From the NCBI GenBank assembly GCA_947470515.1, contig CANITF010000007.1, positions 1 to 64,000 of the forward strand: DNA of 64,000 bases, given 5' to 3'. The translations under genes were made by a program, and so were the position numbers. The stretch comes from Flavobacteriales bacterium (GTDB lineage Bacteria > Bacteroidota > Bacteroidia > Flavobacteriales_D > Crocinitomicaceae). Position 1 is the first letter of the stretch. Every line of letters starts with the position of its first letter. The notes under the pieces are model-generated. The model was not told the DNA's origin and made no database searches. It worked only from the letters and a program-made list of their open reading frames with translations. Shown here in pieces: positions 16,794 to 63,940 of the stretch.

Positions 16794-18977
16794 TTAAAGC
16801 GTTTCAATCACAAAATCGGTTCTTCTGTTTTTTGCTCTATTTGATTCTGACGTATTCTCCAATTTCGGTTGTGTCTCACCCAATCCTTTTGCTGATAAAC
16901 GTTTATTATCAATGCCCAACAAAACCAAATACTCTTTCACTCCTTTTGCTCTGTTTTCAGATAACACTAAATTTTGTTTATCATCACCAACATCATCTGT
17001 ATGACCTTGAATTGAAACTGTAATCGATGGGTTTTCTGTCAAAAAACGACTAAATCCACGTAAAATAAATTTTGCTTTTTCACTTAAGCCAGCAGAGTTG
17101 GTAGTATATAAAATGTCGTTAATCGTATAAGATTCACCTATTTTCAATTCTTTCACTGTAAGATCTTTGTCGCGAATTGTAACAACATCAGGTTTAAATT
17201 CCTCTTTGGCAATTAATTTTGAATCAAACGCATGACCTTCTTTTTTCACCGTTACCATCACATCTTGTTTCGTATCCAACTTCACAACAGTAGCATACTT
17301 CCCATCGTCACCATTCACTTTAACTTGTGTTACCGCATCTGAACCAGCATACGTGATTTCAATCGTTGCATCCTTCACTGGATCTCCCGATTCATCTTTT
17401 AATTCACCTTTTAAAATAGCAACAGCCTTTGGACGCGCTTCTTCGTATAATTCAAATGAATAAATGTTCCAATTTCCACCAATACGAGAAGAGTAATAAG
17501 CGATTTTTCCATCTGTTGAAACAAATAAACCTAACTCATCTTCTTTTGAATTAATCGGATAACCAATATTTTTTGGTTCAGACCAACCTTCACTTGATTC
17601 TCTGATATAAAATATATCTAAACCTCCAACGCCTTTGCGCGAATCGGTGCAGGAAGATACAAAATACAAGGTCTCACTGTCTTGGTGCAAGAATGGACTT
17701 TTATCTTTACCATCTGTGTTTATTTCATCAAATGGTCGAGCTGCTCCCCATGTTCCATCTTCTTTTCTTTTTGCAATAAAGATATCATTGTCACGTGTTG
17801 TTGGTCGAGCAGCAGTATAAAACAAGGTGTTTCCATCAGCAGAAAGTGAAGGTTGTGCTTCCCAGCCATCTTTGGTATTTATATCTGCTCCCATATTTTT
17901 CAACGTAGACCATGTAAAATCATTTCCTCCAGTTCCAGAGCGTTCATAAGTTGTCGTGTATAAATCACAATTCAAATAATCCTGTCCATAAACTTGTTCC
18001 TTTTTACATGCACAAATAATCATTTCCTTGTTATCCACGGATAATGTTGCAGCTCCATAATTTGTAAATGTTCCGTCGTTAAATGGTGGTTTCAAGAATT
18101 CACCTGAGCTGAATGGAGATTTGATGTCAGATCGTTGTGAAAAGGTAAATTTTTCAACCCATTTCGATACTAAATCACCCAATTGGGCATCATCCACTTT
18201 ACGGGTATAAAAAATCAACTCATTATCAGGAGAAATCATTGGAAAATATTCATCCTTGTCTGCCGTACTCACATTCTTCACAATTGAAGGCGCAAACGGA
18301 ACTTCATTGGTTAATAAATCTTGTTCAGACTCAAGTTCTTTTAGTACCTCATTGACATCATTCATTTTCTGATTAAAATCATCTGGGTAACGCGAATTAT
18401 CTGAATTTTTAAATTTTTTGAATGCTTTAAACCATTTAATAGCTTCTGGCTTTTGTTGCTGCGTGTAATTGATTACTCCTAAATAATAGGAACAATTTGC
18501 ATGATAATCTGAACAATATTCTAATGCTTTGATAAACATTTCTTCAGCTTTTTGAAAACTTTTATCCCCCATTGCTGGATTCGGTTGTTTATCGTAATAA
18601 TCTAATCCAGAAAAATAGGCGTACATTCCGTATTCGTAGTAAACCATTGCATTATCTGGAACCGCCTCAATTGCAGCGTTAAAATTATCAACGGCTGTTT
18701 TTGCATCGGCTGCAGCACTAGCAGTTTCAATCAATTTCATCACTTTTTTGTTCGGTGGTAAACACGACTCATCTTCCTCTTGTGCAGAAGAATTAAGAAA
18801 CAAACCCGAGAAGACAACGAAGAGGTAATACCGATTAGCAATTGCTAAAACTGGATCAAAAATCCAGCATAACCAATTCCAGATCGGCATTATACTAAAA
18901 TTAAGCTTAGGAAAATTTAAAGTATAAATATGCTTCATATTATAAGAAAAATCAAATTTTGAAATGGGCAAAATCAA
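16794..18977 (-). CDS. OmpA-family protein with TPR and PD40/WD40-like propeller
   Basis: A 727-residue exported protein. After the N-terminus (likely signal near NRYYLFVVFSGLFLNSSAQ, about 47-65) come TPR-like helices (about 75-205), a TolB-like PD40 propeller (about 230-510; repeats such as FPMISPDNELIFYTRK and QPSLSADGNTLFYTAARP), a carboxypeptidase-regulatory-like sandwich (about 515-595) and a C-terminal OmpA peptidoglycan-binding domain (about 615-727: GHTDDVGDDKQNLVLSENRA, NRRTDFVIE). This order is common in Bacteroidota, including proteins of gliding and type IX secretion systems such as PorE-like members. The start is uncertain: 46 residues precede the signal, and the Met at 18890 is another candidate. 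Confidence 0.85.
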   Translation of the reverse strand: MILPISKFDFSYNMKHIYTLNFPKLNFSIMPIWNWLCWIFDPVLAIANRYYLFVVFSGLFLNSSAQEEDESCLPPNKKVMKLIETASAAADAKTAVDNFNAAIEAVPDNAMVYYEYGMYAYFSGLDYYDKQPNPAMGDKSFQKAEEMFIKALEYCSDYHANCSYYLGVINYTQQQKPEAIKWFKAFKKFKNSDNSRYPDDFNQKMNDVNEVLKELESEQDLLTNEVPFAPSIVKNVSTADKDEYFPMISPDNELIFYTRKVDDAQLGDLVSKWVEKFTFSQRSDIKSPFSSGEFLKPPFNDGTFTNYGAATLSVDNKEMIICACKKEQVYGQDYLNCDLYTTTYERSGTGGNDFTWSTLKNMGADINTKDGWEAQPSLSADGNTLFYTAARPTTRDNDIFIAKRKEDGTWGAARPFDEINTDGKDKSPFLHQDSETLYFVSSCTDSRKGVGGLDIFYIRESSEGWSEPKNIGYPINSKEDELGLFVSTDGKIAYYSSRIGGNWNIYSFELYEEARPKAVAILKGELKDESGDPVKDATIEITYAGSDAVTQVKVNGDDGKYATVVKLDTKQDVMVTVKKEGHAFDSKLIAKEEFKPDVVTIRDKDLTVKELKIGESYTINDILYTTNSAGLSEKAKFILRGFSRFLTENPSITVSIQGHTDDVGDDKQNLVLSENRAKGVKEYLVLLGIDNKRLSAKGLGETQPKLENTSESNRAKNRRTDFVIETL

Positions 18978-19090
18978 ATTTCATACCCAAATGGGTATAT
19001 CGAAAATTGGAGAGAAAGGTTACAGTAAAAACGCAGTTTCGTGGAATCATTTATTCAACAAATAATATCTTTTAACACCTTCAATAATCT

Positions 19091-19116
19091 TTTCCTCACT
19101 CAATCGAACAATTCTC
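19091..19116 (+). repeat. 26-bp direct repeat, left copy
   Basis: TTTCCTCACTCAATCGAACA plus ATTCTC. It matches 19975-20000 with a single mismatch (T to A). The pair encloses the whole DUF559 repeat cluster. Confidence 0.75.
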
Positions 19117-19155
19117 ATAGTAGAATATAAATTGATATTATTAGGCGAATCCATG

Positions 19156-19732
19156 TTTCCCCCTTTAGAGGGGGACTAAGGGGGAGGAAGTAATATAATT
19201 AATTTCTAAAATCAAATATTATTCTTAACTTCAAGTAAAGACATAGTAATGAATAATTTTTACAATAAAAACTTAAAAATATTTGCTCGTGAATTACGAA
19301 CGGAATCTGTTTCTAAAGCAGAAAAATTTTTATGGAAATCTATTTTGAAAAGTAATAAAATAGGTGTTAAATTTAATAGACAAAGACCTATTGATAATTT
19401 CATTGTTGATTTTTTCAGCAAAGAATTAGGTCTTATAATTGAAATTGATGGAAATTCCCATTTCAATAAGCCAGAATATGATCGCTTTCGACAAGACAAA
19501 CTATCAAATTTGGGATTTACTATATTACGGTTTCAAGAAGGTGAAGTATTAAATCAAATTGACCAAGTTGCAGAGCAAATAATCCATGCGGTTCATTGTT
19601 TAAGAAATAATTAGTGTTTACAAACCTTAAATATTTTCAATTATTTGGTATTGACAAAAGAAAATATTCTCTTTATTATTAAGTGTAAATTAAGAGTGTC
19701 CTCCCCCTTCATCCCCCTCCAAAGGGGGAGAT
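19156..19732 (+). mobile_element. DUF559 element bounded by inverted G/C-rich repeats
   Basis: The left end (19156-19187) reads CCCCCTTTAGAGGGGGACTA then AGGGGGAGG. The right end (19700-19730) is its inverted counterpart, CCTCCCCCTTCATCCCCCTC then CAAAGGGGG. The DUF559 nuclease gene lies between them. A tail of about 75 bp between the gene and the right end is repeated almost exactly in the neighbouring shorter element. Each end is itself partly palindromic (CCCCCTTT.GAGGGGG). This layout, one gene between inverted ends plus a gene-less copy beside it, resembles an autonomous and non-autonomous pair, though no transposase is present. Confidence 0.55.
19249..19614 (+). CDS. DUF559 endonuclease-domain protein
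   Basis: A 121-residue protein of the DUF559/Vsr-like PD-(D/E)XK group. The core motif set is FNRQRPIDNFIVDFF (42-56, with Asp54), IIEIDGNSH (63-71, with Glu65, Asp67 and His71) and GFTILRF (89-95). N-terminal ARELRTESVSKAEKFLWK is the family's usual lead-in. Length is normal, so the gene looks intact. The cellular role of DUF559 proteins is not established. Here the gene sits alone between inverted G/C-rich repeats, which makes it a candidate mobility or repeat-processing factor; this is inference. Confidence 0.85.
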   Translation: MNNFYNKNLKIFARELRTESVSKAEKFLWKSILKSNKIGVKFNRQRPIDNFIVDFFSKELGLIIEIDGNSHFNKPEYDRFRQDKLSNLGFTILRFQEGEVLNQIDQVAEQIIHAVHCLRNN

Positions 19733-19780
19733 TTAAATTCTCATTCTAGAATTGTCTTTGATGCTTTTAGTAGGTTTCGT

Positions 19781-19934
19781 TTTCCCCCTTTCGGAGGGGG
19801 ACTAAGGGGGAGGATTTTTTTGCCAAACTTTACATTTTTCAATTATTTGGTAGTGACTAAAGAAAATATTCTCTTTATTTTTAATACTAAATTCAGTGTA
19901 TCCTCCCCCTTTATCCCCCTCCAAAGGGGGAGAT
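19781..19934 (+). mobile_element. short gene-less derivative of the DUF559 element
   Basis: The left end at 19781-19813 (CCCCCTTTCGGAGGGGGACT then AAGGGGGAGG) and the right end at 19902-19932 match the ends of the preceding element. Between them is only a copy of that element's tail (about 19823-19900: CAATTATTTGGTAGTGACTA, AAAGAAAATATTCTCTTTAT). It therefore looks like an internal deletion that removed the nuclease gene, in the manner of a MITE. Confidence 0.6.
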
Positions 19935-19974
19935 TAAATCTTGAATCGAAGTTTTTTGTTGTAGGGATTTCTAA

Positions 19975-20000
19975 TTTCCTCACTCAAACGAACAATTCTC
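19975..20000 (+). repeat. 26-bp direct repeat, right copy
   Basis: TTTCCTCACTCAAACGAACA plus ATTCTC, one mismatch from 19091-19116. It lies 37 bp before the start of the BNR-repeat gene, so it is probably part of that gene's original upstream region. Confidence 0.75.
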
Positions 20001-20037
20001 TTTTTGAAATGTCTATTTTTAAACTCAAATTGCTAAA

Positions 20038-23000
20038 ATGAAAAAACAACTTTATATTTCCATTCTTGCTTTAACACTTGGTCTTCCAAGTATAGCACAA
20101 AAGAAAGATACCAAGAAAACAACACCAACCCCGCTTTTCGATGAATCTACAGTTGGAGGTTTAAATTTTAGATTAGTTGGTCCTGCTTTAACTTCAGGTC
20201 GAGTTATCGATCTTGCAATCCATCAAAAAAATGCAGACAAATGGTATGTTGCAGCTGCTTGCGGTGGTGTTTGGTTAACAACAAATCATGGAACTACGTT
20301 TTCACCAATTTTTGATAATTATGGTTCGTACTCGATTGGATGTGTTGAATTAGCTCCTTCAAATCCAAATACAGTTTGGGTCGGAACAGGTGAAAATAAT
20401 AATCAACGTTCTGTTGGATATGGCGATGGAGTTTACAAATCATTAGATGGAGGAAAATCCTTTACGAACATGGGATTAAAAACTTCCGAACACATTGGGA
20501 ACATCATCATTCATCCAACAAATGAAAATATCATTTGGGTAGCAGCTTATGGTCCAGTTTGGAGCGCAGGTGGTGAAAGAGGCGTTTACAAATCAATGGA
20601 CGGAGGAACAACTTGGGAACGTACTCTTTTTGTATCTGATGAAACGGGAATTTCTGAAATTGCTATTGACCCAACAAATCCAGATATTTTATATGCTGCG
20701 GCGCATCAACGAAGAAGAAGTGAATGGACATATATTGGTGGAGGACCAGAATCTAATCTTTATAAATCAACTGATGGTGGTAAAACATGGAAAGAAATAA
20801 ATTCAGGATTACCAAAAGGACAAATGGGAAGAATTGGAATAGCTGTTTCACCCGTAGATGCGAATTATGTATATGCTATGTTGGAAGGTAGAGATGACAA
20901 AGGTGGTTTTTATCGTTCAACGAATAAAGGTGAAAGCTGGACAAAAATGTCAGGCTATAATACTGGTGGAAATTATTACCAAGAAATTATGTGTGACAAC
21001 CAAAACAAAGACAAGATTTTTGCGATGGACTCCTATTTACACCATACAATAGATGGAGGAAAGAATTTCGTAAGCACTGGCGAGAGCAATAAACACGTCG
21101 ATAATCATGCTATTTGGATTGACCCAAACAACTCAGAACATTGGTTAGTTGGCTGTGATGGTGGTTTATATGAAACGTATAATCACGCTGCACAATGGAA
21201 GTATTATGCGAATCTGCCAATCATTCAATTTTACAAAGTTGCAACCGATAATTCAACACCGTTTTACAACATTTACGGTGGAACGCAAGATAACAATTCG
21301 ATGGGAGGAGCATCTGGAACAACGAATGTTACGGGCATTTTAAATTCAGATTGGTTTATCACGAATGGTGGAGATGGATTTGAATCAGCTTGTGATCCAG
21401 TTGACCCAAACATTGCTTATGCGCAAGCTCAATATGGTTGGATTGTGCGTTATGATAAAGCTTCTGGTGAAAAAGTTCCGATTCAACCAATGCCAGGAAA
21501 AGGCGAAGCAGCTTACCGTTGGAATTGGGATTCACCGTTATTAGTTTCACCACACGATCATAAAACATTGTATTTTGCTGCGAATAAAGTCTTCAAAACG
21601 ACGAATCGTGGCGATGATTGGACAACAGTTTCACCTGATCTTTCTCAACAAATTGATCGTAACAAATTAGCGGTAATGGGACAAGTTTGGTCGATTGATG
21701 CCGTTGCGAAAAATACGTCCACCTCCATTTATGGAAATATCATTGCATTGGACGAGTCGCCAAAGAAAAAAGGGTTGTTGTATGCCGGAACAGATGACGG
21801 ATTGATACAGGTTTCTGAAAATGACGGAACAACTTGGACGAAAATTTCAACGTTTACAGGAATTCCAGCAAACACAAGAGTGAACATGCTAACAAGTTCA
21901 ATGCATGCAGAAAATGAAGTGTTTGCTGTATTCAACAACCAACGTTCAGGTGATTTTAAACCGTATGTTATGAAAAGTTCGGACAAAGGAAAAACATGGG
22001 TTTCAATCAGTTCAAATTTACCAGAAAGAGGAACAGTATATTGTATCAAACAAGATCATGTTGATCCAAATTTATTGTTTGTTGGAACAGAATTCGGAGC
22101 CTATTTTTCAAACGATGGCGGTAAAGTATGGACGAAACTTGCTGGTTTACCAACCATTGCCGTGTATGATTTAGACATTCAAAAAAGAGAAAATGATTTA
22201 GTTGCTGCAACATTTGGAAGAGGATTTTATGTTTTGGACAACTATACTCCTTTGCGTTCATTGAAGAAAGAGAATTTTGACATGAAAGCGTATTTATTTC
22301 CAATTAAAGATGCATTGTTGTATGTTCCAGCTGACCCATTAGGGCTTGAAGGAACAGGATTTCAAGGAGCAAATATGTGGTCCGCTTCCAATTCAGAATT
22401 TGGAGCAATTTTCACTTTAAATATCAAGGATGAATACAAAACCTTGAAATCTATTCGTCAAGAAAAGGAAAAGGCCTTGGAAAAAGACAAAAAAGAGGTT
22501 GTTTATCCAACGTTTGATGAATTAAGAAAAGAACAGCAAGAAGAAAGTGTTCAATTGATTTACGTTATTCGTGATTCGAAAGGAAAAGAAGTTAGACGAT
22601 TAATTTCAACACCTTCAAAAGGAATTTCAAGAATTGCTTGGAACTTGCGTCAAGAATCAACTGAGCCAGTCAATGTCAATGGAACACTCAATAAGAATAA
22701 TGGATTCTTAGTTCAAGCTGGGGTTTATTCAGTTGAAGTTTTGTTGTTGAATAACGGAGTCATCGAAACCTTGACTGAAAAAGTAAACTTCACGGTTAAA
22801 GCATTGAACAATCAAACGTTGGTTGCGTCTAATACGGAAGAACTTGACAATTTCCGTAAAGAAGTTGCGGAATTAAATAGAAGCATTAATGGTTCTTCGA
22901 ATTTATTGGGTGAATCAAAAGAAAAATTGGATGCGTTGAACCGTGCTTTATTGACGTATCCAAATACAGATCTTAAATTGATGGAAGAAACACGCGCATT

Positions 23001-29496: not shown

Positions 29497-29616
29497 AAAA
29501 TAATAAAGAAGGAAGAAGGTTTCAAAAAAGGAAAAAGGTAGAAGGAAAAAGTAATTTAATTCTTGGGAATCACACTTTTTACTTTTTACTTTTTACTTTT
29601 TACTTTTTACTTTTTG
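29497..29616. repeat. intergenic element: purine arm, 25-bp core, TTTTTAC tandem arm
   Basis: The left arm is purine-rich (GAAGGAAGAAGG..GGAAAAAGG). The core GTAATTTAATTCTTGGGAAT CACAC (29551-29575) recurs inverted at 63879-63903 with few mismatches. The right arm is about five tandem CTTTTTA units (29576-29612). The arms are complementary in base class. Confidence 0.6.
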
Positions 29617-63811: not shown

Positions 63812-63940
63812 TTGTAAAAATAATGAAAAAGTGAAAGGTAAAAGTATAAAGGGAAAAGTTAGAAGTAAAAAGGAATAAGTGTGATTCACAAGATCTAAAT
63901 TACTTTTTACTTTTCCCCTATTACTTTTTAATCTCTATAA
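63812..63940. repeat. intergenic element with purine arm, 25-bp core and TTTTTAC arm (second copy)
   Basis: A purine-rich arm (AATGAAAAAGTGAAAGG, then GGGAAAAG, AGTAAAAAGG) is followed by the core GTGTGATTCACAAGATCTAA ATTAC (63879-63903) and TTTTTACTTTTCCCC. The core is the reverse complement of 29551-29575 with a few mismatches. Confidence 0.6.

Follow-up and report, generated by a model that had tools for sequence, protein, structure and literature searches.

A DUF559 nuclease gene bracketed by intrastrand-triplex motifs: anatomy, linkage and probable mobility of a bacterial repeat system

Why does a small nuclease gene lie between inverted copies of a G-rich semi-palindrome, and why does a second, gene-less pair of the same repeats lie next to it? 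The question is posed by positions 19156-19934 of a 64-kb stretch of DNA from a member of the Flavobacteriales (the window, meaning the whole stretch analyzed). A sequence-only reading had described four such repeats in alternating orientation, the first pair enclosing an intact DUF559 gene and the second only the tail of the same element, and had proposed an autonomous element beside a MITE-like derivative. The anatomy was read correctly. Matches to the consensus AGGGGGAYNNAGGGGGAGG occur only at the four repeat places in the 64 kb (chance expectation 0.01), and a position-blind detector built from the triplex rule alone (see below) returns exactly four motifs, at 19158-19186, 19701-19729, 19783-19813 and 19903-19931, oriented +, -, +, -. 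Motif 1 (about 19158-19188, plus strand) and motif 2 (about 19699-19729, minus strand) form the left and right brackets, each with its third arm toward the gene, a plus-strand open reading frame of 121 amino acids at 19249-19614. The gene is followed by a tail (19617-19698, plus strand). This tail and its right repeat (19617-19736) recur at 19819-19938 with 85% identity. Therefore, the second pair, motif 3 (about 19783-19814, plus strand) and motif 4 (about 19901-19931, minus strand), brackets just a gene-less copy of the tail (19819-19900, plus strand) and the right repeat of the first unit. Motifs 2 and 3 are joined head to head by a loop of 52 nt (19731-19782, plus strand). The left flank (19110-19157, plus strand) is homologous to this loop and amounts to half of a head-to-head unit; the match, direct repeat D2, extends over 79 nt with the repeat included, at 73%. 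A 90-nt, CTTTTTA-rich inverted repeat at 29525-29614 and 63840-63929 (34 kb apart, 82% complementary) represents another dispersed repeat family of the genome.

The protein is a member of the DUF559/YcjD family by sequence and by fold. It matches PF04480 above the Pfam cut-off (E = 3e-30), and its structure model (pLDDT 87) matches a DUF559 protein of Neisseria (3hrl), the catalytic domain of the EDxHD homing endonuclease I-Bth0305I (3r3p) and, more weakly, Vsr. A profile search also finds 3hrl and 3r3p, and the invariant residues include E25, D54, E65, D67, H71 and D78. To our knowledge no function had been assigned to the family before, and we know of no DUF559 protein for which cleavage or transposition has been shown. 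That a YcjD profile detects Vsr was reported in 2005 (PMC1189080). What is added here is the association with repeats; no report of a DUF559-repeat link was found in the open-access literature, with subscription papers and preprints outside the scope of that search.

The repeat unit is laid out as S, loop, S', spacer and S'', where S' is the reverse complement of S. The final arm, S'', does not duplicate S'; it repeats the sequence of S' backwards on the same strand, as a mirror image in which T may stand for A. Examples of S', spacer and S'' are TCCCTCCTTGAGGAGGGA-TTA-AGGGAGGTG, TCCTCCCTTGAGGGAGGA-CTA-AGGAGGGTG, TCTCCCCTTGAGGGGAGA-TCA-AGAGGGGTG and TCCCCCTTTGGAGGGGGA-CTA-AGGGGGAGG. When elements are chosen with no regard to a mirror, S'' is closer to the mirror image in 170 cases and to the direct copy in 37; with one count per S' class, the excess is just 22 versus 12 (p = 0.06). 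The two arms also covary, with a mirror fit of 0.82 compared with at most 0.74 in 300 permutations of S'' among elements. G.GC, A.AT and T.AT are the triplets of the antiparallel purine-motif triple helix. Since S'' mirrors S' with exactly these triplets, folding of the G-rich strand can place a third strand in the groove of its own hairpin. The window repeats thus have the sequence pattern of a class II purine-motif intrastrand triplex, an S-S' hairpin with a mirroring S''. Such repeats entered the literature in the 1990s as BoxC of E. coli and were later named PIT/TM. They have been described in more than 260 genomes, tied to genome instability, and CD and NMR have demonstrated a physical triplex in vitro, for no sequence but that of E. 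coli; footprinting in vivo, also in E. coli, detected no stable triplex (Holder et al., 2015; PMC4666352). In the DUF559-linked genomes, triplex formation would be expected from the arms. A G-quadruplex was considered as the conserved fold. It suits GGGAGAGGGTTAGGGTGAGGG but fails for classes with two G-tracts such as TCTCCCCTTGAGGGGAGA...AGAGGGGTG, which the mirror rule fits, and for the E. coli sequence the published NMR also favors the triplex (PMC4666352).

Two smaller observations concern the repeats themselves. A short repeat, CGCCTTGAGTTTATCGAAAG, is nested in the S' region of triplex motifs at two loci (L013, about 1500-1560; L014, about 1465-1520), and the L013 site in genome G116 has an uninterrupted motif without it. 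Judged by eye, paired motifs in genomes of genus g2 often combine a TTA-like spacer with a CCG-like one; the E. coli repeats likewise form pairs of type A and type B (PMC4666352), hinting at distinct left and right ends kept across phyla.

Do the repeats and the gene belong together, as the earlier reading supposed? In relatives they do. A scan of the collection yielded 78 DUF559 genes in records of Bacteroidota, Cyanobacteria, Nitrospirota, Desulfobacterota, Chloroflexota, Calditrichota, Spirochaetota, Patescibacteria and Bacillota. An inward-facing motif lies within 400 bp of 63 of the 78, on both sides of 31, and about one gene in five has no detectable inward motif. Motif density per 250 bp is 0.93 upstream and 0.62 downstream of a DUF559 gene and about 0.02 beyond 1 kb, and 160 motifs in real DUF559 flanks compare with 0.2 in shuffled ones. 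Neighboring open reading frames have matching inverted flanks in only 2/280 cases versus 23/75 for DUF559. Within the family, an inward motif accompanies 39/47 DUF559 genes and 0/30 GIY-YIG control genes of the same genomes. The association is a strong one. The second DUF559 gene of the genome is also bracketed, by a different repeat with a hairpin in the spacer. Here the brackets are CCCCTCCACCGGAGGGGTGTCAGCC...GGCTGACGGGGTGG (L002/L051, G000:C35, about 17360-18050), on the same plan plus the second hairpin, and the same type occurs in G074 and G098 (L053, L059). Moreover, the two ends of one element may differ in sequence class and yet both obey the triplex rule (L047, L058, L060), which suggests that shape is what is recognized. 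In several proteins (e.g., L026, L044, L058, L062) the downstream repeat enters the DUF559 reading frame and is translated into C-terminal tails such as NPPPSPLQRG and LNPPPKGE.

Within the family, the nuclease and its repeat ends are also coupled. The residue x of an F-x-RQ motif predicts the third-arm end type in 36/36 loci (p = 1e-10, a value inflated by the shared ancestry of the loci). K or N before RQ goes with AGG-type ends (17/17 loci), and L with T-type, TGAC/TGGC-like ends (19/19 loci). Perhaps this only reflects genome background? Genomes G063 and G098 argue against it, because each has both nuclease types and each type has its own end class (L041/L050 and L021/L065). The coupling is hard to explain other than by an interaction between protein and repeat.

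E. coli offers a related case. Its DUF559 gene, ycjD, lies between sapF and fabI. Downstream is a good repeat copy, CCCCTCGCCCCTCTGGGGAGAGGGTTAGGGTGAGGGG, followed by two decayed copies; no motif was seen upstream, so that good repeats stand on one side only. The repeat downstream of ycjD is of the same sequence class as BoxC/PIT/TM and occurs at a median of 18 places per E. coli genome, and the ycjD region is present in 3362/5426 genomes. Strain MG1655 has 23 BoxC/PIT/TM copies, and the account of them reports no associated transposase, integrase or other mobility gene, leaves their origin unanswered and attributes their variability to triplex-induced instability; its text mentions neither DUF559, ycjD nor endonuclease (PMC4666352). 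The DUF559 repeats share with BoxC/PIT/TM the hairpin and mirror third arm, intergenic position, inverted pairs and variability between strains, and differ in the tie to DUF559 across phyla. Strains of E. coli lacking ycjD were tried as empty sites, but a TetR/RND-efflux segment adjoins fabI and there is no clean boundary. In two of them, genes for a TetR regulator and an RND efflux adaptor take the place beside fabI in the sapF-fabI interval (L147, L148). The ypfG-tkt site was likewise rejected as a clean insertion, since the motif replaces a REP/BIME-like block in some strains; it is a polymorphism only.

Does repeat number follow the nuclease from genome to genome? For 100 genomes of the family, copies of two exact repeat patterns were tallied. 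Copies beyond the four in the window are present elsewhere in the genome. Carriers of stand-alone DUF559 have a median of 8 copies (36/39 with any) versus a median of 0 in genomes without it (42/61 with none; Fisher p = 5.5e-10), nineteen of the 61 still holding some. The contrast is reached in 0/5000 permutations of labels within genera, and it remains significant when two or four bracket copies are removed per gene (p = 2e-7 and 4e-4, respectively). Gene-less copies arranged as inverted pairs outnumber the gene, as in REP/RAYT systems, and the earlier expectation that gene-less copies are more numerous than gene-bearing ones is supported.

Is there evidence for movement? The sister genome G074 is without the whole composite, with 99% identity at the flanking 1088-aa protein, and G101, G105, G037 and others are also without any motif at this site. 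Therefore, the site is polymorphic among relatives rather than occupied in every strain. Window segments 19000-19116 and 19975-20100 map onto the empty site (L153) as two BLAST pieces that overlap by 26 bases, 1438-1463 of L153 corresponding to both 19091-19116 and 19975-20000. These direct repeats are the left and right copies of a 26-bp target site duplication around the composite, with one mismatch between them and a single copy in the sister genome. This is one gain with target duplication, and the only clean occupied/empty pair found; the gene-less sites of the same genome are too diverged from their sisters to give boundaries. Outside bracketing pairs, direct repeats of variable length occur in 27% of loci versus 1% for mismatched pairs, so that either the target duplications are long or the units extend beyond motif-to-motif.

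The nearest relatives of the DUF559 gene (78-80% identity) are at a different place, beside hisH. Elsewhere in G074 and G101 the head-to-head pair (19699-19814) and its loop have a dispersed relative that contains no gene (86-87% identity of the loop to L200), and isolated head-to-head pairs are common. This corrects the earlier view that the MITE-like unit is the tail-containing pair: the gene-less unit that has dispersed is instead the -/+ pair with the 52-nt loop. The tilS-side intergenic interval varies as well (G000:C9, L007; orthologues L197, L198, L194). In G000 it is occupied by a gene-less pair; G074 and G116 have a different DUF559 element there, and G101 lacks a motif.

How does all this compare with known systems? 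As in insertion sequences and MITEs, there are gene-bearing and gene-less copies with inverted ends, and a target duplication at one site. However, no DDE or HUH transposase is present, only DUF559 lies inside, the ends are structural motifs whose sequences need not match, and the 26-bp duplication is long. The DUF559 element is not a classical insertion sequence. Of the earlier proposal of an autonomous element with a MITE-like derivative, the gene-less copies and the polymorphic site stand, and the classical terminal inverted repeats give way to BoxC/PIT/TM motifs whose two ends may differ in class. The analogy drawn with REP elements and their RAYT (TnpA-REP) proteins proves to be the right one. 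Both systems have short palindromic intergenic repeats, inverted gene-less pairs (REPINs in the REP case) and a single dedicated small nuclease gene flanked by repeats. In contrast, RAYTs are Y1/HUH tyrosine transposases and DUF559 has a metal-dependent PD-(D/E)XK/EDxHD-type fold, and the GTAG/CGTC tag at the foot of REP palindromes, absent on reading from the four window repeats and the bracket pairs inspected, is replaced by the third mirror arm. The DUF559 system works like REP/RAYT and is not a member of it. With I-Bth0305I and Vsr the protein shares the fold and the conserved E/D/H/D residue set. Its gene is intergenic and lies at different sites in relatives. The differences are that no intron or intein context was seen and that the gene is bracketed by triplex repeats. 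Finally, the consensus of the Rfam whalefall-1 RNA (RF01762) shows the same hairpin followed downstream by a AGGGUGAGGAC arm. Each of the four window repeats matches it at 24.8-31.4 bits, under the gathering score of 37, as do most repeat copies in the genome, just under cut-off; an Rfam search of loci with spacer-hairpin repeats gave no whalefall-1 match. What is catalogued as whalefall-1 RNA may really represent DNA triplex repeats whose spacer is long.

We consider it probable, with room for doubt, that the locus is a DUF559 element. Such an element would consist of a small nuclease gene of EDxHD/Vsr fold between intrastrand-triplex motifs, plus gene-less copies on which the encoded nuclease can also act in trans. 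The nuclease probably copies or moves the repeats. A possible scheme would start when the motif becomes single-stranded, on the lagging strand, during repair or through supercoiling. The S-S' hairpin and the mirror arm S'' would then fold into a purine-motif triple helix, and the nuclease would read the folded shape plus a short end signature and nick beside the motif. A released or copied segment would be inserted at another, staggered target and thereby produce a long target duplication, of 26 bp in this case. Gene-less units, single motifs and head-to-head pairs alike, would be the non-autonomous majority moved in trans, a relation like that of REPINs to RAYTs. Conjectural parts of the scheme are the triplex folding in these genomes, the cleavage by DUF559 and the sequence of steps.

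What if DUF559 is instead a guardian against the repeats? A Vsr-like DUF559 might resolve or remove harmful triplex or hairpin DNA and be kept and co-transferred where repeats are common, the repeats spreading by other means. The Vsr-like fold suits such a role, and co-occurrence and specificity would be expected from it too. However, it does not explain why inward third arms bracket the nuclease gene itself, nor why gene and repeats were inserted together with a target duplication, and we regard it as unlikely. Close behind it, and also unlikely, is a homing-like parasite, a selfish DUF559 gene that inserts between or beside older, independent repeats as its target. The fold match to I-Bth0305I, the mixed-class brackets and the abundance of isolated head-to-head pairs all fit. 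Nevertheless, repeat number rises with the nuclease even within genera, which a mere parasite would not cause, and the empty site of the sister genome has no repeat that could have served as target. Both of these alternatives predict the association, and they fit the brackets, the empty site and the rise in copy number less well than the DUF559 element does.

Could a RAYT-type or other Y1/HUH transposase move the repeats, with DUF559 as a passenger? The family has many Y1 genes, and overall their presence shows a weak association with repeat number (p = 0.006). However, repeats are found in 6/7 genomes that have DUF559 without Y1 and in 12/37 that have Y1 without DUF559, and no triplex motif was found near the Y1 genes at the eight loci examined. 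Y1/HUH transposases do not explain the repeat counts, and this possibility is very improbable. Just as improbable are ordinary terminators or regulatory hairpins that chance to flank many short intergenic genes, for which the stable GC-rich hairpins in intergenic DNA and the sub-threshold whalefall-1 matches speak, but which leave the third mirror arm, the inward orientation and the near-absence of such flanks from neighboring and GIY-YIG genes unexplained and sit poorly with the lack of promoter or terminator activity in published work on the E. coli motif (cited in PMC4666352).

The DUF559 element therefore remains the preferred reading, and a wider one can be built on it. There may be an unrecognized, cross-phylum kind of mobile DNA whose ends are read as three-stranded structures by a dedicated DUF559 (EDxHD-fold) nuclease, with BoxC as its non-autonomous offspring and ycjD as the E. 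coli nuclease; we hold this to be as apt to fail as to succeed. The repeats were already known, and the partner nuclease, its specificity and the cross-phylum element are new as far as the open-access literature shows. Two problems are thereby joined: triplex repeats gain a nuclease, and a widespread DUF559 nuclease gains a likely substrate. The question is testable in E. coli K-12, which carries ycjD together with some 23 repeats. Should the enzyme indeed read the folded triplex, nature would offer a case of triple-stranded DNA recognized by an enzyme.
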